Source: Candidatus Termititenax sp.
GTDB lineage: Bacteria; Margulisbacteria; Riflemargulisbacteria; GWF2-35-9; DYQY01
Direction: 5' to 3'
Length of the DNA stretch: 28,544 bases
Assembly (NCBI GenBank): GCA_020719045.1
Contig: DYQY01000017.1
Span: 1-28,544, forward strand
How positions within the stretch are numbered: position 1 is the stretch's first letter; each line of letters starts with the position of its first letter. The notes below the pieces were generated by a model that did not search any database, was not told the origin of the DNA, and saw nothing but the letters and a program-made list of their open reading frames with translations. Positions 3,719 through 21,262 of the stretch are shown here, piece by piece. Made by a program: the position numbers and the translations under genes.

Positions 3719-3746
3719 ATTATAACCGTAAATAGTGAAAAGTGAA
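3719..3746 (-). promoter_or_regulatory. Candidate promoter for tRNA-GT2-hisS
   Basis: On the minus strand TATAAT (3719-3724) is a perfect -10 box. TTCACT (3741-3746), a 4/6 match to TTGACA at 16-nt spacing, would be the -35 and is supplied by the heptamer tract. Transcription would begin about 45 nt before the tRNA. Only the -10 is strong. Confidence 0.5.
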
Positions 3747-3761
3747 AAGTGAAAAGTGAAT
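3734..3761. repeat. Heptamer tract 1 (AGTGAAA x3 + AGTGAAT)
   Basis: Four head-to-tail 7-bp units, three identical and one differing by one base, lie between the tRNA and the 3' end of the DUF3108-like gene. This is the cleanest tract of the RGTGAAN family in the window. The same family recurs in the same orientation at the 5' end of the neighbouring gene (4432-4495). Confidence 0.9.
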
Positions 3762-3783: not shown

Positions 3784-4503
3784 CTACTGGCTAATCACTA
3801 CAGTTCTTTGTTGGTTTCCCATAAAATCTTTGCCTTCGAATTGAATGAATTGTCTAGGTTCACTTTTAGTAATCCAAAAGTAAAACTTCTGAGAAAAAAG
3901 AGTAGATTCAACTAGACCAGCTGCTCCAACTTCAATCTTGTAACATGAATAATTCTTTTTGTTAATCTGAACTGAATCCTCACCTAAATTTTTAGCATAC
4001 AACAGGAACCCACGTCTAATCTCTGGTAAAAAGCTCCAAAAAGTAATTTCTCTTTCATTTATAGGATAACCTCTCATTAAATGAAAAAATGAATTCATAT
4101 CATAATAGTCTTTTCTATTATCTGGAAAGGAGTATTGCTCTTGTCCGTTATTTAGCTTTACCTGTATTTGATCGCTTAAATATACTAATTGCTTTATTGG
4201 TTTACCATCAGCACCATAATAACTTACACTTTCAGGGTATAAGCTATTATATTTAAGATATATAGTCGCACTTCCTCCATCAGAACCTTCTAGCTTTATT
4301 TTATGGACCTTTTCATTATTTACCACAACAGTACTAATATGTTCTGTTGTTACCAAGCTTTTAGTGCCATCAAAGGTATGATAGATTATTGTTTCTGTAT
4401 CCAGAATTTTATCTGTGAAAGTTGATGAAAAAGTGAATAGTGAAAAGTGAATAGTGAATAGGAAAACAGTGAGCAGTGAACGGTGAAAAGTGAAAGGTTT
4501 CAT
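3784..4503 (-). CDS. Exported DUF3108-like protein with a repeat-encoded signal peptide
   Basis: The product has 239 residues from ATG 4503, which lies 4 nt after the ATPase stop. A TTG six codons earlier (4521) would also be open but has no ribosome site either, so coupling to the upstream gene is likely. The N-terminus (residues 1-30) is hydrophobic and Phe/Thr/Leu/His-rich and acts as a plausible signal peptide, though it lacks the usual run of positive charges; residues 3-24 are encoded by heptamer repeats. The rest is beta-rich and soluble. The pattern (TETIIYHTFDG, KIKLEGSD, YPESVSYYGADGKPIKQL, KNYSCYKIEVG, YFWITKSEPRQFIQFEG) resembles periplasmic DUF3108/outer-membrane-lipoprotein-sorting-like proteins that bind hydrophobic ligands. 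That resemblance is a judgement by eye, and the function is unknown. Confidence 0.6.
   Translation of the reverse strand: MKPFTFHRSLLTVFLFTIHFSLFTFSSTFTDKILDTETIIYHTFDGTKSLVTTEHISTVVVNNEKVHKIKLEGSDGGSATIYLKYNSLYPESVSYYGADGKPIKQLVYLSDQIQVKLNNGQEQYSFPDNRKDYYDMNSFFHLMRGYPINEREITFWSFLPEIRRGFLLYAKNLGEDSVQINKKNYSCYKIEVGAAGLVESTLFSQKFYFWITKSEPRQFIQFEGKDFMGNQQRTVVISQ
4432..4495. repeat. Heptamer tract 2, inside the signal-peptide coding region
   Basis: Eight 7-bp units of the RGTGAAN family (AGTGAAT, AGTGAAA, AGTGAAT, AGTGAAT, then AGTGAGC, AGTGAAC, GGTGAAA, AGTGAAA), broken once by an 8-bp AGGAAAAC. It lies wholly within the reading frame of the exported protein and encodes nearly all of its hydrophobic N-terminus. 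Confidence 0.88.
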
Positions 4504-4507
4504 GTTT

Positions 4508-5662
4508 TTAAAGTTTTTCAAGATCTATAATAAATTTTTTCCAATTCATGACTAAAATATTCCCTACTCTATATTGTTCTTCAGCCTGACATATTATGTG
4601 GCAAGGAACATCAGGATAATCTTCTTGGAACGACTTAAGTCCAGTTAGTTGAGAATTAGAAATAGATTTTGACCATTTTATCTCATATGCACCAATTAAT
4701 TTACCTTCTTTTTCAAGTAACAGGTCTACCTCTGTTCCTGTATTAGTTCTCCAATAATAATAGTTAATATTTTTTTGTAATGTTTTAATGAATTTAATTA
4801 CTTCTAGAATAATAAATTGTTCAAACAATCTACCTAGAAGGAATGAATCACTGATTTTTTGTTCATATCTATTAATAATATTAGTTACTCCGTTATCAAA
4901 AAAATAAAATTTGGGGTGTCCAGATAACCTTTTACGTAAACTTTTTCTCCAAGGTTCTAGCTTAAATCCTATCAACGTATCAGATAGAATTTCATAGTAA
5001 GTTTTTACTGTCATTACAGGTTGCTGACATTCTCTAGCAATTGCGGAATAGTTTACAAGTTCACCAAATTGACTAGAAGCCATGTCTAAAAATTTAGAAA
5101 AAGCACCTATATTTCTAACAATACCTTCACTTTGTATTTCTTCTCTTAAATATACATCAACATAGGCATTTAAAATATCAATTTTATCAATATCATTTTC
5201 TGCATTAAAAACAGGTGGCAATGAACCATATTGTAGAATGCTTGAAAGATTTGCTGTTGATATTTCTTGCCACATTAAAGGAAAAAGAAACCTTTGTACG
5301 GCTCTTCCTCCTAGTAAATTTGCATGACCTCTTTTAAGTTTTCTTGCACTTGAGCCTGATAAAATAAAACATAAAGTTGTATTATCCATTAGGAATTGAA
5401 CTTCATTAAGCAAGGCAGGTACTCGTTGAACCTCATCTATGCATACATGCGTTATTTGAGCATTTTCATATTTTTCTAATACTTCCTTTCTAAACAAGGA
5501 AGGTTCTTTGATATATTTAAAAAATTGTTCACTTAATAGTAAGTTTATTTTGTAAGTATTTTTAGTAAAAGAAAAGTTAATTAGCGTTGTCTTTCCTGAT
5601 TGTCTAGGGCCAAATAAAAAGAAAGATTTATTTGTTGGTAAAACTAATTGCCTATGTATCAT
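4508..5662 (-). CDS. AAA-family ATPase with DUF4143 domain
   Basis: The product has 384 residues. The N-terminal AAA_14 P-loop domain has Walker A GPRQSGKT (18-25), Walker B HVCIDEVQRVP (about 72-82) and the sensor-like FILSGSSARKLKRG. The C-terminal DUF4143 part (about 180-384) holds YYWRTNTGTEVDLLLEKEG...YEIKWSK, a PD-(D/E)XK-like nuclease core (D then E-x-K). Such proteins are widespread, often patchy and laterally moved, and their cellular role is not settled; some genomes carry them near defence genes. The ATG lacks a Shine-Dalgarno and follows a good promoter by only a few bases, so the message may be nearly leaderless. It ends 4 nt before the DUF3108-like gene and probably drives it. 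Confidence 0.85.
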   Translation of the reverse strand: MIHRQLVLPTNKSFFLFGPRQSGKTTLINFSFTKNTYKINLLLSEQFFKYIKEPSLFRKEVLEKYENAQITHVCIDEVQRVPALLNEVQFLMDNTTLCFILSGSSARKLKRGHANLLGGRAVQRFLFPLMWQEISTANLSSILQYGSLPPVFNAENDIDKIDILNAYVDVYLREEIQSEGIVRNIGAFSKFLDMASSQFGELVNYSAIARECQQPVMTVKTYYEILSDTLIGFKLEPWRKSLRKRLSGHPKFYFFDNGVTNIINRYEQKISDSFLLGRLFEQFIILEVIKFIKTLQKNINYYYWRTNTGTEVDLLLEKEGKLIGAYEIKWSKSISNSQLTGLKSFQEDYPDVPCHIICQAEEQYRVGNILVMNWKKFIIDLEKL

Positions 5663-6841: not shown

Positions 6842-7273
6842 CTATAAAACTTCCACGCTTACTAAGGGTTGTCCGTATTCAACTGCTTTGCCTGGCTCTA
6901 CTAAAAAATTAACGACTTTGCAGTCAAAATCTAGTCTTTTATGGTTCTCTAAATTCATTGCTTTAACAAAGTATAGCTCGCGTCCTTTAACTATTCTGAC
7001 ATGTGCATCAATCTCTCTTTGCTCAACTGAAGGATAGAAGATTCCTACTCCTTCTGAAGTAATTTCTTTGATGTTTTTATTAATCTCTGGTTGTACTTCT
7101 TTGGCTTGTGGCTGATGCTCGACTGGTGACTGGTTACTAGTGACTGGTGATGATTGATGAATGACTTTGGCTTTGTTTATTGAGATTTTTGTTTTAGTAT
7201 CACTAAAGTTGATTGTTTGTAATTTTGAGTTTTTTAGCATTTCTGATAGTTGGGTTACTTGTTTAATATCCAT
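6842..7273 (-). CDS. Biotin carboxyl carrier (AccB)-like protein lacking the biotin lysine
   Basis: The product has 143 residues behind AGGAG, close to the usual AccB length. The order is AccB-like. It has an N-terminal region beginning MDIKQVTQLSEMLKNSKL, a Pro/Gln-rich linker (about 38-65, partly heptamer-encoded) and a C-terminal barrel-sandwich domain (GVGIFYPS ... VRIVKGREL ... FLVEPGKAVEYGQPLVSVEV). The second half of the domain is well kept, but the biotinylation motif, normally E-A-M-K-[ML], reads K-A-M-N-L. The acceptor lysine is Asn107 and the preceding Glu is Lys. The Gly of the following hairpin is also lost. It therefore should not carry biotin. No accC follows; map lies upstream as in many map-efp-accB-accC loci, but efp is missing. 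It may be a decayed paralogue or a non-catalytic subunit, and a functional accB would have to be elsewhere. Confidence 0.8.
   Translation of the reverse strand: MDIKQVTQLSEMLKNSKLQTINFSDTKTKISINKAKVIHQSSPVTSNQSPVEHQPQAKEVQPEINKNIKEITSEGVGIFYPSVEQREIDAHVRIVKGRELYFVKAMNLENHKRLDFDCKVVNFLVEPGKAVEYGQPLVSVEVL
7125..7166. repeat. Heptamer tract 3, in the BCCP linker
   Basis: Six consecutive 7-bp units in register: GGTGACT, GGTTACT, AGTGACT, GGTGATG, ATTGATG, AATGACT. They differ from the AGTGAAT form mainly by C for A at unit position 6. On the coding strand they give the Ser/Pro/Val/Gln linker between the two halves of the AccB-like protein. Confidence 0.75.
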
Positions 7274-7384: not shown

Positions 7385-8146
7385 TTAAATTCTTGTTAGT
7401 ATGTCTGATCCGTTTTCTGTAATAGCCACAGTATCTTCAAATTGGCATGACCATTTACCATCCATTGTAACAACAGTCCAGCCATCGTCCAACACTTTTG
7501 TTTTCCATGTTCCCATATTTATCATAGGTTCAATAGCGATAACCATGCCAGGAACTAACTCAATCCCAGTCCTCCTGTTTCCATAATGTGGAACAGATGG
7601 AGCTTCATGAAGTTCAATACCTACACCATGTCCAACGTATTCTCTAACTACACTAAAGCCCTGTTTTTCAACATGTTTTTGAATAACAAAACCAATATCT
7701 CCGATTCTATTTCCTGGCTTTGCAACTTCGCAGGCAAGCTCTAAGGCATATTTTGTTGCTTCGACTAACTTTTTTACTTTTGGATTAACGTCACCTATCA
7801 TAAACGTTCTGGTTGCATCACCAATATAACCATTTTTTGTAACACCAAAGTCAACTTTAATAATATCTCCATCTAACAAAACTCTATTGCCAGGAATAGC
7901 GTGCACAACTTCATTATTTACTGCAGTGCAAGTACTGTGGAAATAACCAGTTACATCTTTAAAGGAAGGAGAACAATTATTAGAAGCACAGAACTCTGTA
8001 GCTAGATTATCAATATCGATTGTTTTAATGCCTGCTTTAACAAAAGGTGGTAATACTTTATCAAGAAAAGTAGCAACTAATTGAGATGCTGCCCGTATTC
8101 CATCTATCTGTTCAGATGTTTTAATGATAATCTTGTTACTTTTCAC
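7385..8146 (-). CDS. map: Methionine aminopeptidase, type I
   Basis: The product has 253 residues if started at GTG 8146; a longer frame opens at another GTG (8161). The inner GTG has GAGGG (about 8155-8159) upstream and gives the usual N-terminus ending in IIIKTSEQIDGIRAASQLV, so it is preferred. The metal ligands of the pita-bread fold are present: Asp in IKVDFGV, Asp in GYIGDATRTF, His in YVGHGVGIELHE, Glu in MVIAIEPM and Glu in CQFEDTVAI. It removes the N-terminal Met from nascent proteins. The start region and its ribosome site fall in or next to a heptamer tract. Confidence 0.96.
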   Translation of the reverse strand: MKSNKIIIKTSEQIDGIRAASQLVATFLDKVLPPFVKAGIKTIDIDNLATEFCASNNCSPSFKDVTGYFHSTCTAVNNEVVHAIPGNRVLLDGDIIKVDFGVTKNGYIGDATRTFMIGDVNPKVKKLVEATKYALELACEVAKPGNRIGDIGFVIQKHVEKQGFSVVREYVGHGVGIELHEAPSVPHYGNRRTGIELVPGMVIAIEPMINMGTWKTKVLDDGWTVVTMDGKWSCQFEDTVAITENGSDILTRI

Positions 8147-8161
8147 TATTCCAACCCTCAC

Positions 8162-8203
8162 TGTTTACTGTTTACGATTTACTATTAACAATTTACAATA
8201 ATC
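8162..8203. repeat. Heptamer tract 4, the map/trmB divergent spacer
   Basis: Six consecutive 7-bp units on the plus strand: TGTTTAC, TGTTTAC, GATTTAC, TATTAAC, AATTTAC, AATAATC. The reverse complements (GTAAACA, GTAAATC ...) belong to the RGTRAAN variant also seen at 16521-16541. The phase can be followed leftward into the first codons of map, to about 8137. The tract makes up nearly all of the spacer between the two divergent genes. Confidence 0.72.
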
Positions 8204-14370: not shown

Positions 14371-15816
14371 TTAATTATTAAAAAAATCTTTTTTATCAAA
14401 CTTTAAAAAAATTAAAAACATGAAAATCCATAAAGGAAAATAGTAGAAAAACTTCATAATAAATGGAGTATTACCTGAAGTTATTTCTAAGTTTTCTGAT
14501 AAATATCCTGCTTTATTATCAGGGATAATTGATAGTAATTTCCCATGATGATTAACTACAGCACTTATGCCATTATTAGTACTATAGACATATGGGGCAT
14601 ATTGCTCGGTTGCTCTAAACTGAACTGTTCTAAGGTGTAACCTTTGAAAATATTTATTAAACCAAGCATCATTTGTAACAACAACACCAAGATCAAATTT
14701 CCTTAAATATGAAAGATTTGGAAAAGCAGACTCAAAACAAACAAGTGGCGCTATTCTTAGACTCTTGATATTAATAGGCCCTGTCATTTTACCTCCATGC
14801 GAATAATAAACTACATCACGAATGTTTTCCCAATTAGAAATTATTGGGAAATATTCACCAAATGGTACAAGTTGCCTCTTATGGTATTCTGCAATATATT
14901 TTGCTTCTTTATAAAAAAGCATCGCATTGTATATCTTTTCACCCCTCTTAACTGGTTGCCCCATTATACATAATCTGTTACCTAAGTTGGTTGAAAAGCA
15001 TAATCTGTCCTTGATTGTGTTCTCCCATAATGCTGGAATGATATTTTCTGGAAGAACTATTATCTCTGTATCAGGATTATCCTTAATAACTCTGTTTATT
15101 AACTTAAAATATATGTCTAAATTATTATTAAATAGGGATTCATCAGTTTTATATTCTTGATCGATATTCGGTTGTATAACAGCAACATGAACTGATTTGC
15201 GCTTAACCTTAATGCTATCAATGTAAGAATCTACACCAACTACAAATACTAAGCAGAAAAATGATACAAAAAATAGTACATTAACTCTATTTCTAATTTT
15301 CCCTACAATAACTAAAGCCAGAAAAGTAGAAAATGTTAACAATAATAAAGTAACCGCATAAGCACTTATAGCTGAATATGCAAGCCACTGGATTGCAGAG
15401 TTTGCTTGAGTTAAATATAGAGACATAAACGGATATCCAAAGGGACCGAAAGTTAATAGCCATTCAAAAAAAGTCCAATAAATTGGAATAAAATAATAAC
15501 CCTTAGGTGTTTGCAGAATATATTTAAACAGATAGAAAAAGATATACCATAATACAAAGAAATATAAGCTTATACCAAGCCATATTAAAATCGCACTTCC
15601 TTGACCAATAAATCTATCTAATGATACAAACCAATGTGAGTGAGTTAGGACAAAGACGCCTAATCCAACAAGAAACTCAGGCTTCTTATAGAAATCATGG
15701 TTTTTTAAAACATAGACCAGAATCGCTGTTATTAATAAAGGAACTATTATGAATAATTCCTTAAAGAAAGCAACTCCAAGTAGCAACCCAATAATAATAG
15801 ATATAATATACTTCAT
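14371..15816 (-). CDS. lnt: Apolipoprotein N-acyltransferase
   Basis: An inner-membrane enzyme of 481 residues that adds the third acyl chain to lipoproteins. The N-terminal half has about six to seven hydrophobic spans (1-195), and one closes the C-terminus. Between them lies a nitrilase-fold periplasmic domain with the expected triad: Glu257 in IIVLPENIIPALW, Lys313 in IAEYHKRQLVPFGEY and Cys360 in IAPLVCFESAFP. It begins at a TAATG junction with the lipoprotein gene (15816), so the two are translated together. Its neighbours lptD and a lipoprotein fit a role in outer-membrane biogenesis. Confidence 0.95.
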   Translation of the reverse strand: MKYIISIIIGLLLGVAFFKELFIIVPLLITAILVYVLKNHDFYKKPEFLVGLGVFVLTHSHWFVSLDRFIGQGSAILIWLGISLYFFVLWYIFFYLFKYILQTPKGYYFIPIYWTFFEWLLTFGPFGYPFMSLYLTQANSAIQWLAYSAISAYAVTLLLLTFSTFLALVIVGKIRNRVNVLFFVSFFCLVFVVGVDSYIDSIKVKRKSVHVAVIQPNIDQEYKTDESLFNNNLDIYFKLINRVIKDNPDTEIIVLPENIIPALWENTIKDRLCFSTNLGNRLCIMGQPVKRGEKIYNAMLFYKEAKYIAEYHKRQLVPFGEYFPIISNWENIRDVVYYSHGGKMTGPINIKSLRIAPLVCFESAFPNLSYLRKFDLGVVVTNDAWFNKYFQRLHLRTVQFRATEQYAPYVYSTNNGISAVVNHHGKLLSIIPDNKAGYLSENLEITSGNTPFIMKFFYYFPLWIFMFLIFLKFDKKDFFNN

Positions 15817-16580
15817 TAGATTACCGTCACCTTTATGGCATATAAATCATTATAACTGCCTGTTGAATAATTTAGTCGCTCTACAAATTGTCCTTTACTG
15901 TTCTTAATAGTATTATCACTATTTCTATAGTAATCAACAACTACTCCTTGATTATCTATAGAAAATAAGTTGAAATAAAAAAATTGGTCAGTTGCTGGCT
16001 TGCTTTCAGAGCCTAGCTTCTGAAGCTCTATCTGAAATTCAATATCATAATTACCACTAGTATTAGTAAAAGAAAAACCAGACTCGTTAGAAATGTTCCT
16101 AGCATAAAAGCTCTGATTGATGCTTTGATTAGCTGTTGAAGGGAAATATGGCGAACTTGGGTCACAAAACTCTTGAGTTTGAGTAGCACCTAACTTTGTT
16201 AAATATATATAATCACTCCAAGTAGAAAAATAGTTTTGATAATAATAATTAATAAAGACATCTTTACTAGCATTAATCGTACCGTTACTAGTAGGTGATT
16301 TAGCTAGGTCGATTGTTGAAAAATCAAAATCCTGGCCTGGTAAGAAAGTATAATAATTAACAGGAATTGCTATCTGACTTTTACTATACACAAAGACATA
16401 CTTATAATCATTTAACATAGGGTCAGCACCTAACTTAATATTAACAACCATCGTACTTCCGGCGTTTGGTTTTGCACCACTTACTGTTTCAGCGCAACCA
16501 GTTAATAGTGAAAGGTGAATAGTAAACAGTGAACAGTAAATAATGAAAAAAAATGCTGTTTTTAGTTTATCTAGCGACAT
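15816..16580 (-). CDS. Lipoprotein of unknown function between lptD and lnt
   Basis: The product has 254 residues from ATG 16580, chosen because GGGAG lies 8 nt upstream and it overlaps lptD by only 14 bp; the longer frame from 16655 would run deep into lptD. Residues 1-28 form a lipoprotein signal ending in the lipobox L-L-T-G-C with lipidated Cys29. Part of the signal (about 11-27) is encoded by heptamer repeats. The mature protein is beta-rich, with many Tyr/Asn/Ser (KYVFVYSKSQIAIPVNYYTF, FINYYYQNYF). It matches no family I know. Its place directly after lptD suggests it could be the partner lipoprotein of LptD (an LptE analogue), but no LptE similarity is visible. Confidence 0.8.
   Translation of the reverse strand: MSLDKLKTAFFFIIYCSLFTIHLSLLTGCAETVSGAKPNAGSTMVVNIKLGADPMLNDYKYVFVYSKSQIAIPVNYYTFLPGQDFDFSTIDLAKSPTSNGTINASKDVFINYYYQNYFSTWSDYIYLTKLGATQTQEFCDPSSPYFPSTANQSINQSFYARNISNESGFSFTNTSGNYDIEFQIELQKLGSESKPATDQFFYFNLFSIDNQGVVVDYYRNSDNTIKNSKGQFVERLNYSTGSYNDLYAIKVTVI
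16500..16548. repeat. Heptamer tract 5, inside a lipoprotein signal sequence
   Basis: Seven 7-bp units: AGTTAAT, AGTGAAA, GGTGAAT, AGTAAAC, AGTGAAC, AGTAAAT, AATGAAA. They mix the RGTGAAN and RGTRAAN forms and are in the same orientation as tracts 1 and 2. The tract lies within the lipoprotein gene, just upstream of and up to its lipobox codons. Confidence 0.82.
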
Positions 16581-18900
16581 CTTGTTGCTCCCATCCATGG
16601 AAAGTAGATCCAGCATCACCAACGGTTGTGCCAAAAGTTTGATCAGGGAAAGCATTTACTCTGAACAAGAATGAATGCTCATGGTTATATTCTCTGTATC
16701 TATATATTAACTCCACACAACCCATGTTTCTTATTATATCAACAAACGGAACTGTGTACTGCTTATTAAAATTATTCCAAACAAATTCTGACCGAACCTT
16801 CCAAGGTTCTTCTTCACCAAATGACTTCCCTACTTGAATCCTACTGTCTCTTACAATTCCTGAAACTAGCTCATAATTCATTCTCCAGATAAGATAGTTA
16901 TCATAGTCTTGTTGATATATAGCATTGCTTTGAAGATTCTGCCATCTTGAATTTTCGTGGTCGTAACCAGTGAAAAGACTAACAGAGCTTTTTGTGTCTA
17001 ATGAGTGTTTAAGGTCAAAATACTCTATGTCTCTTTTGTTATTAATAAAGTCAAAACCATCTCGTACAGTAAAAGTTGTTTTATCTGTAACTTGATAGAT
17101 AAATGAATTATTTAACCTTTTATTAACATAAGAAGACATTTCGTCAAAATAAAATGGAGAATAGCCACCATTATGATACTGAGTATATCTTAAAGAATTC
17201 CTGAAAGGGTTTCCATTAAAGACATCTAATTGATAAGTTTCATTTAAACCATACTGTTTATCTTGAGTTTCATATAAATATTGGTCATAACCATAAGTAG
17301 CACCAAATTGCATGTACTCAGATTTATAAATATCAGCATTAATATCGTTTCTTACTAAAATTCTCTTTAAAGTAATATCCCTATTACCATTTGTTCCATA
17401 TGTTGGGTCTATGTAACGTCTCTCATGGTAGTTTCCAACGATTATTGATGGGGAATATCTAAATATCCCGCTGGTATAAGGATTAAAACTAAGTTCAGCC
17501 TCAGGTATGTTTTCTAAAATTGAAAGATTGTTATCTTTCGTTACTCTGTCACCATCTAAATCAAAAAGCATATCTGTTCGAAGTGCAACTGCCCTAAGAT
17601 TAAGTGGTGCATTAAATAGACTGTAGGTAAGCCCAATTTTAGGTTGCAATAATTCATCCGTCTCACTATTAACTTTATCGTTTTTATAGGTAATATTGGT
17701 ATTTACTTGCAGGTCTCTCACAGGAGAAAAGCTAAGCGCATTATTGTAATACTGATAATCATTATTACCACTTTTGTTAGCTGAATAATTAAAGTTATTA
17801 TTAACCGTTTTTATTGAAGTATTAATGCTAAAGTTTTGTCTTAAAGCCCCTGAATTTGAATAAGTGTCTTTAGCATACTGAACATTATTCTTTGAGTCAC
17901 CAATACTTCCTTGCCATGAATATTTTTCGGTTTTCTGTGCATATTCACGATTATCATAATTATAAGCATACAAGCTTCCTATCTGCTTATTAGAATAGCC
18001 AATGTAACCATCAGTAAATTTCTCAAATCCACCAGACCTTCTATGCATATTCCTTTGTTGTATCCCATACTTAATGTTTTCATCAGGGAAATTAATGGTT
18101 TGGTCCCATTTTAAAGCATAATGATTTGAATCAATAAAATATAAGTATGCTGTAGATGGATCAAATTTATTCTTTCTAATAGTTGCACTGAAACCAAATC
18201 CCCAGCCAAGCTTCTGCATGTGATCAATATAAATTAGAGTCTTAAAATCTTCATTTAAATAATAATCCAGAGCAGTTTTAACATAATCGCCTTCAACTAA
18301 GTTAGTTCCAATAATGGGGAACAGTAGTATTGGATTTGCATATCCAAGCTTAAATTCGTAATAAGGAGAATAAAAAACAGGAACCGGACCTGATTTACAA
18401 TAAACATCGTAGCCAATTATTTTATCATTAGGATAGAATTTAAACCTTTTTGCCTCAATTAGATAATATTGTCTATCATAAGGACAGGTTGATAGAGTTG
18501 CGTCATTACCTTGGAAATATATATTATCCTTACTTATTGTCTTGCTAGTAAAATACACAGGAGCTTGGAGTTCTACAGGATTAAATGTAGCTGATACTGC
18601 TGAAAAAACTAGTTTATCTTCCTTAAGTTTATAAGTAACAACATCTGTATAAAATCGATTTCCTTCATAAACTACATCAATTCCACCAAGAGCAAAGAAT
18701 TCATTAGTTTTTGTATCTATTTCGGCATATTTAGAATTAAGTTTAATGTTTTGATAACTTAGTTCAACATTGCCAGAAGCAATAATTAAGTGATTTTCCT
18801 TATAAATTAGTTCATCAGCTGAAATATCAACCTCACTGGAGAATGAAATGCTAAAAATAATTAATAAAATAAAACTTTTTTTAAATAATGTAATTAACAT
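16567..18900 (-). CDS. lptD: LPS-assembly protein LptD (OstA)
   Basis: The product has 777 residues from ATG 18900; a TTG one codon earlier also fits, with AGGTT about 10 nt upstream. MLITLFKKSFILLIIFSISFSS is a signal peptide. Residues about 25-110 form the OstA/LptA-like jellyroll (VDISADELIYKENHLIIASGNVELSYQNIKL, TKTNEFFALGGIDVVY). The rest is the large beta-barrel with the typical PVFYSPYYEF and many Tyr/Asn-rich strands. It inserts lipopolysaccharide or a related glycolipid into the outer leaflet. It overlaps the TPR gene (20 bp) upstream and the lipoprotein (14 bp) downstream. Together with lnt it shows a full outer membrane. Confidence 0.9.
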   Translation of the reverse strand: MLITLFKKSFILLIIFSISFSSEVDISADELIYKENHLIIASGNVELSYQNIKLNSKYAEIDTKTNEFFALGGIDVVYEGNRFYTDVVTYKLKEDKLVFSAVSATFNPVELQAPVYFTSKTISKDNIYFQGNDATLSTCPYDRQYYLIEAKRFKFYPNDKIIGYDVYCKSGPVPVFYSPYYEFKLGYANPILLFPIIGTNLVEGDYVKTALDYYLNEDFKTLIYIDHMQKLGWGFGFSATIRKNKFDPSTAYLYFIDSNHYALKWDQTINFPDENIKYGIQQRNMHRRSGGFEKFTDGYIGYSNKQIGSLYAYNYDNREYAQKTEKYSWQGSIGDSKNNVQYAKDTYSNSGALRQNFSINTSIKTVNNNFNYSANKSGNNDYQYYNNALSFSPVRDLQVNTNITYKNDKVNSETDELLQPKIGLTYSLFNAPLNLRAVALRTDMLFDLDGDRVTKDNNLSILENIPEAELSFNPYTSGIFRYSPSIIVGNYHERRYIDPTYGTNGNRDITLKRILVRNDINADIYKSEYMQFGATYGYDQYLYETQDKQYGLNETYQLDVFNGNPFRNSLRYTQYHNGGYSPFYFDEMSSYVNKRLNNSFIYQVTDKTTFTVRDGFDFINNKRDIEYFDLKHSLDTKSSVSLFTGYDHENSRWQNLQSNAIYQQDYDNYLIWRMNYELVSGIVRDSRIQVGKSFGEEEPWKVRSEFVWNNFNKQYTVPFVDIIRNMGCVELIYRYREYNHEHSFLFRVNAFPDQTFGTTVGDAGSTFHGWEQQDVAR

Positions 18901-21262
18901 CAAGCAACCTATATGCAGACAATTCCTTCAACAGCCCATACTGTTGGTATTTTTGCCAATTATTAGTAGCCTTTTCGATGTTATTTTGAAGAAAATATAT
19001 ATCTCCAAGCAATAGATACGCTTCAAAAAAATCTTCATCCAACTCAATAAGTTTTTTTACCAAACTTTTTGCCTCGTCAAACTTTTTCATATAATAAGTA
19101 AGAATAAAACCCATATGATAATAGGCTGCTGTTGATGCTGATTTTCTGCTTTTTAAAATACGCTCAAATATCTTTGATGACTCCTGATAGTTCTTATCAA
19201 TTAACGATAATACTGCCCTATTATTCAAAATATTTTTGTGAGATGAATCCATCTGCTCGGCTATCTTTAATCTATCAGAAGCGGATGTTAGTTTTCCTTT
19301 CAAAATATCCTCAACTGCTTCGTTATTTGAAGCCACACCCATAGAAGATTCAAAATGTTCTTTGTGTTTATTCTTAAGTATATTTCTATTAAAAATTACA
19401 GTAATGTCTTTACAGACAATATCTTTAGCAACAACTATTAGCGATTTTCCTGCAACTTCCAAGCATGGTGAATTCTTAAGAATTTCTTCTCTTTTTTTAA
19501 TGTCCTCTCTTTGGAAATCTATCTCTAAGATTCTGCCATATTTCTCAAGAGCTGGGTCGATAGAACCAACAATCTCACAAACTTCTGCGTACTTTGCAAG
19601 CACCATTAAATACTCAGGTGATGTATCAACAAAAATATTTGCAAGTGACTTCTTTAAACTACCAATGGCTGAATAAAAATTATTTAGACCAATAAAGGAA
19701 ATTGCTTGATAGTAAAAAAGCTTGTAGTTGTTATTACTCTTACTAAGCTCTTGGATTCTGATTAAGGAATCACTAAACTGTTTATTTTCTATCATTGACT
19801 TAATATAGTCTAATTGAGAGGCGATATCTTGGTTATTTTTGGATCTATTTCTAAAAAAATCTTTTCTTAGAGACAGCTCTGTCGGATAAATCTCGGAATA
19901 AATAGAATAAATAGTGCCTTTATCGTTACACTCATCCTTAGCTTTTTCAAATGCTTCCCTTAAAGAAACAAAGTCTCTATTACCTGCGTGACTTAAGAAA
20001 AGGATTCTATAAGCTTCCTCTTTATCTTCACCTTTCTCTAGCAATTCGTGAGCAATTTCGATACATCTATGATAATTCTCATTTTTTAAATATGCTTCTG
20101 CCATAGTGAGCTTTGCATAATAATTTTTAGGGTTACTCTCTATTAGCTCTTGGCACTGCTTCATTACACTTATGCTTTTTGAGACATCTGCATTCATAAG
20201 TTTTTTCATGTACTGTAATTCTGCAAAAGTATCATTATTTGCGTGATAGTAATCAGCAAGATACTGAAGCGCAGATACTTGGTTTGGGAAAACCTCAACA
20301 ATTTTCTTAAGACCAGCGACAGCTTTATCTTCATAAAATGAGTTTGATATTATTGCATGATAATCGTCCGCTGATTCAGAATACCTTTTTGTTAACAAAT
20401 ATAGTTCAGCTCTAAGAACTAAGGCATCTTGTAGTTCAGGTGAAGCTTTCAAAATTGAAAACAACTTATCTTCTATTATTAACAACTTATCGTCAAAATC
20501 ATTGTCTAAATAACTCTGTAGAATATCGATTGCTTTAGGAAAATATGAATAAAGAATATACAAATCAAGAAGCTTAGCAATAATGAACTCTTTTTCTGTC
20601 ATTGCATCTCTACATTTCTCAATAAACGAGATAACATCGTTATAACTATTTTTATTTAAGGTGATTCTTTTCTCGGAAATATCAACTGCTTTTAAATAAT
20701 TGCCGATTCTAAAATGTAAATCAGACAATGTTCGATGGTATATCTCTTTTTCACCATTAGTTTGCACCAACTTTTCATAAACAGATATTGCTTTTGATAT
20801 ATTATTACACTCAAGATAGGCTAAAGCTAAGCTATGACATATTTCTTCGTCATAAACCCCAATACTATATGGTTTCTCAACATATTTAATTATCTCGCTA
20901 AAGCGTTGGATTTTTTTAAATGTATTAATAAGCTCTTTATAAATCTCTAGATTTAGTGGATCAGATAAAAGCAAGTCTTCATAAATATCAATAGCTTCCT
21001 CAGGATTACCCTCTAAGCGATAAATATCAGCTAAAGCAAGCCCAAGCTCTGTATCTTTTTCTATTTCAGGATACTTTTTTTCAAATTGCAAAAGAATAGT
21101 TGGCAGCTCTCTTGGCCATAGCTTAATAATACGTTTATAGTGCTGTAAAGCAGCATTATATTTTTTAATTCCAAACAAATAATTTGCAGTTTTAGTTAAT
21201 GAAGACAGAGTTTCATAAGTTTTATTTGTTTTTTGTCTTTCAATATCACTTATAAGATTCAT
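18881..21262 (-). CDS. Large TPR-repeat protein
   Basis: The product has 793 residues, almost entirely helical and composed of tetratricopeptide-like repeats. Repeat cores such as ADIYRLEGNPEEAIDIYEDLLLSDP, LALAYLECNNISKAISVYEKL, AEAYLKNENYHRCIEIAHELLE and LLGDIYFLQNNIEKATNNWQKY are seen along the whole length. A short non-TPR segment occurs at about 595-640 (IVVAKDIVCKDITVIFNRN). It has no signal peptide or membrane span, so it is probably cytoplasmic. It starts 3 nt after purQ and overlaps lptD, so its expression is tied to both. Its role is unknown; the position suggests a scaffold linked to envelope assembly. Confidence 0.85.
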   Translation of the reverse strand: MNLISDIERQKTNKTYETLSSLTKTANYLFGIKKYNAALQHYKRIIKLWPRELPTILLQFEKKYPEIEKDTELGLALADIYRLEGNPEEAIDIYEDLLLSDPLNLEIYKELINTFKKIQRFSEIIKYVEKPYSIGVYDEEICHSLALAYLECNNISKAISVYEKLVQTNGEKEIYHRTLSDLHFRIGNYLKAVDISEKRITLNKNSYNDVISFIEKCRDAMTEKEFIIAKLLDLYILYSYFPKAIDILQSYLDNDFDDKLLIIEDKLFSILKASPELQDALVLRAELYLLTKRYSESADDYHAIISNSFYEDKAVAGLKKIVEVFPNQVSALQYLADYYHANNDTFAELQYMKKLMNADVSKSISVMKQCQELIESNPKNYYAKLTMAEAYLKNENYHRCIEIAHELLEKGEDKEEAYRILFLSHAGNRDFVSLREAFEKAKDECNDKGTIYSIYSEIYPTELSLRKDFFRNRSKNNQDIASQLDYIKSMIENKQFSDSLIRIQELSKSNNNYKLFYYQAISFIGLNNFYSAIGSLKKSLANIFVDTSPEYLMVLAKYAEVCEIVGSIDPALEKYGRILEIDFQREDIKKREEILKNSPCLEVAGKSLIVVAKDIVCKDITVIFNRNILKNKHKEHFESSMGVASNNEAVEDILKGKLTSASDRLKIAEQMDSSHKNILNNRAVLSLIDKNYQESSKIFERILKSRKSASTAAYYHMGFILTYYMKKFDEAKSLVKKLIELDEDFFEAYLLLGDIYFLQNNIEKATNNWQKYQQYGLLKELSAYRLLDVNYII

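Follow-up and report, generated by a model that had tools for sequence, protein, structure and literature searches.

Repeat DNA that is read in frame within bacterial proteins is known from the palindromic elements of Rickettsia, which are tolerated at permissive sites. These elements are palindromes of about 100-150 bp that must keep the reading frame. The STRR repeats of cyanobacteria are heptameric repeats that are comparable to the one described here. Heptanucleotide direct repeats with the unit TAACTGA occur in Beggiatoaceae, Cyanobacteria, and Bacteroidetes, and regulation at the start codon was proposed for them (MacGregor 2015, PMC4679880); signal peptides are mentioned 0 times in the main text of that paper. 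Another such family is formed by the heptameric repeats GGGAATC and GGGGA(C/T)T of Xanthomonas and Nostoc, and the sections of their description that we draw on give no signal-peptide cases (PMC4692102). Reviews of small mobile repeats within coding genes include PMC2229807 and PMC10969869. For the exact repeat studied here, TTCACTN, or for its peptide, we found nothing relevant in the literature.

The window, that is, the whole stretch of DNA that we analysed, is a contig of 28,544 nucleotides (C5) from G000, a marine, Margulisbacteria-like Candidatus Termititenax genome of 1.75 Mb in 31 contigs. Its phosphoglucomutase-like protein is 59% identical to a protein from an uncultured Ca. Marinamargulisbacteria MAG. 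G001 is the only relative from the genus that we compared, G003 and G004 are order-level relatives that are richer in tracts than G000, and G019 belongs to a different family of the phylum. Within the window, the relevant features are:

3724..3760, minus strand: intergenic heptad tract; lies 24 nt past the DUF3108-like gene, on the upstream side of a gene beside tRNA-Met
3784..4521, minus strand: gene for a DUF3108-like predicted secreted protein (PF11306, E = 8e-4, below the cut-off)
4429..4498, minus strand: heptad tract in two segments, encoding the core of the DUF3108-like protein's signal
8138..8196, plus strand: intergenic heptad tract, separated by 13 nt from the downstream trmB-like gene (judged by eye); the tract is also present in G001
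14371..15816, minus strand: lnt, apolipoprotein N-acyltransferase (TIGR00546, E = 9.6e-58; Pfam CN_hydrolase), directly downstream of the lipoprotein gene
15816..16580, minus strand: lipoprotein gene with a conserved ATG at 16580; its ortholog in G001 begins with an identical MSLDKLK
16500..16549, minus strand: heptad tract (TTCACTN)7, encoding the lipoprotein signal's hydrophobic core together with part of its lipobox
16567..18903, minus strand: LptD-like gene (778 aa), so labelled in the original prediction and by synteny with lnt only

The window's TTCACTN tracts score 15.8-30 in our heptad scan, as compared to a maximum of 13.8 across 60 Markov shuffles of the window. (We relied on Markov shuffles because the reversed TTCACTN heptad is nearly the same as itself, which makes a reversed-pattern control invalid.) The contig has about five tracts where the mean density across the genome predicts 0.5-0.6 (P about 2e-4); the tracts are thus locally clustered.

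The tract in the lipoprotein gene scores 30.0. From 16548 to 16500, the minus strand reads TTCATTA TTTACTG TTCACTG TTTACTA TTCACCT TTCACTA TTAACTG, or seven TTCACTN units, and 37 of the 42 fixed positions match. TRF gives this tract a period of 7, 14, or 21. No inverted repeat was reported locally at 16500-16548; the units are direct and not palindromic. We prefer the start codon at 16580, which is conserved, over a longer open reading frame from 16655 that was called mechanically. The first 14 nt of the gene (ATGTCGCTAGATAA) overlap the 3' end of the upstream LptD-like gene, whose product has no sequence match in Pfam, NCBIfam, or PDB (including to the OstA/LptD domain). The signal of the lipoprotein has 29 residues (MSLDKLKTAFFFIIYCSLFTIHLSLLTGC), and the tract encodes residues ~11-27, ending one residue before the Gly-Cys of the lipobox. 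The original prediction that most of this signal is made of the repeat is therefore correct. The protein has a positive n-region, a hydrophobic core, and a lipobox of the form L-x-[GAS]-C (MSLDKLK...LLTGC). The Gly-Cys is invariant across six aligned orthologs, and distant orthologs retain GC or SC. On these features, the lipoprotein is a predicted substrate of signal peptidase II (SPase II).

A similar repeat core had also been proposed for the DUF3108-like protein, and we confirmed it at 4429-4498. (The match of this protein to PF11306 is 19.7 bits, as compared to Pfam's cut-off of 26.) Its likely start is MKPFTFH, which is preceded by an in-frame extension, LKNFKN. The mature parts of the two proteins are unrelated, with a best BLASTP E value of 1.9. 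The signals share an S-L-F-T-I-H-x-S-L core because 7 mod 3 = 1, so that every frame meets one and the same set of seven codons. Whatever the frame, the TTCACT strand translates as FT[FILV]H[SFYC]SL, mostly without stops, while the opposite (NAGTGAA) strand has stops in every frame. In the set of tracts of at least 30 nt used for this count, 277 of 306 sense frames were open and 303 of 306 antisense frames were stopped. As the core is forced by the repeat, neither common ancestry nor selection is needed to explain the likeness of the two signals.

The relatives bear on the history of these signals. In G001, the signals of both orthologs are likewise built from the repeat, with the heptad register of G000 (MSLDKLKSSLLFTLHLSLFTIFLFFITGC for the lipoprotein; MKPFTFHRSLLTVFLFTIHFSLFTF in G000 and MKLVTRHLSLFTFFLFTFHLFTFTF in G001 for the DUF3108-like protein). 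Overall, the lipoproteins of the two genomes are about 50% identical and the DUF3108-like proteins are about 72% identical. At the order level, the same loci carry unrelated signal cores: the three lipoprotein orthologs have the signals MLKMPKDKHFLHSITFLILVAAFLLTGC, MINIRKKLLIIFILIITVCMLSGC, and ...IILNCLLISIMLVFFVGC, and the two DUF3108-like orthologs have MKKILLILLVSLCQA... and MKKGLTLFIACQAFFF... (the DUF3108-like signal from G003 is cut off at the edge of its stretch). These five signals have TTCACT heptad scores of just 4-8.4. More distant orthologs have no TTCACT tract but ordinary signals or, once, another heptad. An alignment of six lipoprotein sequences does not require a tract-sized insertion, so the old core was replaced and not lengthened. 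The signal of the DUF3108-like protein is 6-12 residues longer than its relatives' signals. Since G001 has the tracts, and the orthologs at the order level and beyond have non-TTCACT signals, an existing core appears to have been replaced before the genus split, as dated by comparison to one relative from the genus, G001. Comparison of these sequences thus supports the view that in both G000 and G001, the repeat is the hydrophobic core of both predicted signals and replaced another core.

We propose that heptad arrays are retained at sites that tolerate their peptide, that signal cores are among these sites, and that two arrays came to lie in such cores in the ancestor of the genus. We consider this to be the probable explanation. 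Degenerate TTCACTN arrays are scattered across these genomes at gene edges, and would have arrived by insertion or local expansion. If an array lands on coding DNA, then the stop strand would end the protein, which would be tolerated at 3' ends, and the open strand would add a fairly hydrophobic peptide whatever the frame. An open reading would survive only at permissive sites such as loops, tails, linkers, and signal-peptide cores. In the ancestor of the genus, two arrays would have taken over the signal cores of the lipoprotein and the DUF3108-like protein in place of the old cores. These arrays, which presumably work as signals, may then have been kept or tuned to higher hydrophobicity by selection.

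Alternatively, arrays might be preferentially placed or recruited at the 5' ends of genes so as to provide or swap export signals. Both of the window's genes, with signals conserved in the genus, fit this idea, but a census of tracts makes it unlikely. A pattern search found about 35 TTCACTN tracts in G000, at many sites, and none besides the window's two is in a signal. (Signal peptides were called by a simple composition rule, on which the expected counts also rest.) In an additional 400 kb of G000, with 46 signal-like genes including the window's two, we saw no other clear periodicity at lag 7 at the N-termini. Uniform placement predicts 0.12 signal tracts in G000, as compared to two observed (P = 0.006). 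However, if tracts are confined to permissive DNA (non-coding DNA and signal cores in the sense orientation; about 28 tracts), then 1.3 are expected, and the observed count is not unusual (P = 0.38). For G003 and G004, this model predicts 4.0 signal tracts, and among about 85 tracts, 0 are in signals. (Several short open reading frames over tracts in G004 were counted as doubtful.) So, the proposal that the repeat supplies or replaces export signals holds for these two genes, whose cores were replaced, but not as a general role.

Occurrence of the peptide inside cytoplasmic proteins had been named as a refuting result, and we observed it: the peptide lies within cytoplasmic and other proteins, which is a further argument against a dedicated supply of signals. 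In WecB from G001 (TIGR00236), KLFTFHSSPF lies in a loop of variable length (L128:3612-3640). HATPase_c domains of two histidine kinases from G003 contain HSPFTIHPSP and PSPFTIHPSP. A surface protein of G000 with about 4000 amino acids and Ig-like domains has five in-frame TTCACTN tracts inside its domains (L105:3-11960; G000:C18), and an ORF similar to P-type ATPases has an open reading of a tract in its C-terminal tail. Since the repeat is found in cytoplasmic enzymes and between genes as well as in signals, this looks like an accident that was put to use, and not like a dedicated system for making signals.

Other repeats show similar placement. In WecB from G005 (L218), the same variable loop holds another repeat-like peptide (LTPAPSPQAERG), so this permissive site seems to collect repeats. 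Within the window, a GACTGGT heptad at 7121-7150 is translated as SPVTSNQSPV, which lies in a biotin-carrier-like protein's linker; the linker differs in G001, so repeats also enter cytoplasmic linkers. In several copies across G000 and G001 (L098, L111 twice, and L130), a tract is flanked by a serine-recombinase-like gene on one side and, on the other, by a gene with the end CGGCWEGAYKAVYLK; the repeat and the mobile gene may travel together.

Three N-terminal cases (smpB, a HypA-like gene in L163, and L149) were rejected, as the tract lies in an extension upstream of the likely start. For smpB, the loci are:

L114:8012-8524 (G000:C28): smpB with upstream tract
L120:3460-3906 (G001): smpB with upstream tract

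Here, about 5 nt separate the end of the tract from the start codon, and an upstream ATG shares the frame of the tract (MSFHSSLFTVYVLLLTI-MTNSF). The tract is also present in G001. Gene-finding programs may wrongly annotate a signal-like extension at this site. An in-frame tract just upstream of a start could turn into a leader, as expected if arrays were a supply of signals. For annotators, an N-terminus of the FTxHxSL type may be a real signal, as is likely for the window's two genes, or it may be an artefact of extending a gene across a repeat at its 5' end, as in smpB.

The orientation of the tracts fits the idea that arrays survive where their reading does the least harm. At the 3' ends of genes, the stop strand is in the coding sense in 46 cases and the open strand in 11 (P = 3e-6), and these tracts often provide the stop codon itself, as in a FolD-like protein that ends with ...LNSEK and a stop. 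At 5' ends, it is the open strand that is more often in the coding sense, by 39:22 (P = 0.04). This bias would also be expected if arrays were directed to 5' ends to make signals, but it fades if duplicates within the genus are removed (P = 0.25).

It is also improbable that the tracts are primarily regulatory elements in RNA or DNA, with binding sites near start codons and the coding cases as side effects. Many tracts do stop 5-20 nt short of a start codon (those of smpB, the trmB-like gene, an aspS-like gene, and an ABC transporter), G000 and G001 have some of the 5' tracts in common, and the TAACTGA repeats provide a precedent (PMC4679880). But tracts at 3' ends (57) are as frequent as those at 5' ends (61) and are oriented the opposite way, a pattern that would not follow from one regulatory role, and by eye, the functions of the neighboring genes have no obvious pattern.

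Finally, signals in general do have slightly raised self-similarity of their DNA at lags of 5, 6, 7, and 8, but it is hardly credible that the AT-rich codons of hydrophobic signals coincide by chance with the heptad, as none of 3000 draws of synonymous codons gave a heptad score as high as the observed one in any of the four signals (both proteins in G000 and G001; P = 3e-4 each), signals of the same genes in the outgroups score just 4-8.4, and the lag-7 values of the remaining signal-like genes from the 400 kb of G000 do not exceed 20, as compared to 25-26 for the window's pair. Because the synonymous-codon null is exceeded, the signals reflect a repeat at the DNA level and not hydrophobic convergence alone. 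The original prediction had taken two cases in one window as an argument against coincidence. The number of cases is as expected for permissive DNA, and the shared core is automatic.

If arrays persist where they are tolerated, as we propose, then selection might have refined them afterwards. Within the tract, the 10-residue hydropathy of the four signals is 1.99-2.35, which is reached by 0.4-2.5% of 240 readings of other tracts; the four sequences come from two events, so this is a small sample. Also, both of the signal tracts are common to G000 and G001, as compared to roughly 4 of 24 intergenic tracts (Fisher P = 0.046, again a small sample). These results are only suggestive of selection behind the shift in hydropathy and the retention of the signal tracts, and the best-fitting tract could simply be the one that survived.

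In G019, the ortholog of the lipoprotein has a signal (MARSLIVVSCLLLVVSLVGC) that is encoded by a second type of heptad, TTAGTTG (INDEPENDENTLY). This is an independent case:

L038:1479-2144 (L267 coordinates; G019:C29): lipoprotein ortholog with TTAGTTG-built signal LIVVSCLLLVVSL

The heptad score of this signal is 28.2, as compared to a maximum of 16.0 under the synonymous null, and its lag-7 value is 27, as compared to a maximum of 21 for shuffles. There are about six TTAGTTG tracts in G019, and the others lie outside of genes or near their edges. A few other N-termini in G019 reach lag-7 values of 21-24. That TTAGTTG independently builds the signal of the same lipoprotein would also fit a dedicated supply of signals. 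Another possibility, which we find doubtful, is that heptad arrays in this phylum repeatedly end up in signal cores, with TTCACTN (in genus g1) and TTAGTTG (in G019) having independently rebuilt the same signal. If so, frame-independent repeats would be a repeatable source of new export signals.

Signal peptides diverge quickly and their origin can rarely be traced, and in this case the raw material is visible. Since any frame yields one and the same peptide, which is probably hydrophobic enough to work after little change, these arrays offer a testable route from a non-coding repeat to a targeting sequence.

Like the TAACTGA repeats (PMC4679880), TTCACTN arrays are tandem 7-nt units with stops in all frames on one strand and a single repeating peptide on the other (LSVISYQ for TAACTGA), and they are mostly intergenic or at the edges of proteins and rarely in protein loops. 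However, the unit here (TTCACTN / NAGTGAA) is from a different heptad family, and, unlike the TAACTGA repeats, it forms a large part of two predicted signal cores that are conserved in a genus. According to the sections of PMC4692102 that we draw on, the heptamers of Xanthomonas and Nostoc are also tandem 7-nt repeats that are abundant between genes near gene ends and under-represented in ORFs, but those are G-rich and are thought to act as G-quadruplexes. In contrast to the palindromic elements of Rickettsia, heptad arrays have no palindromic structure, and the peptide that they encode does not depend on the frame. TTCACTN arrays are a known kind of repeat, and their use as a predicted export-signal core is described neither in PMC4679880 nor in PMC4692102, as far as the sections that we draw on go.
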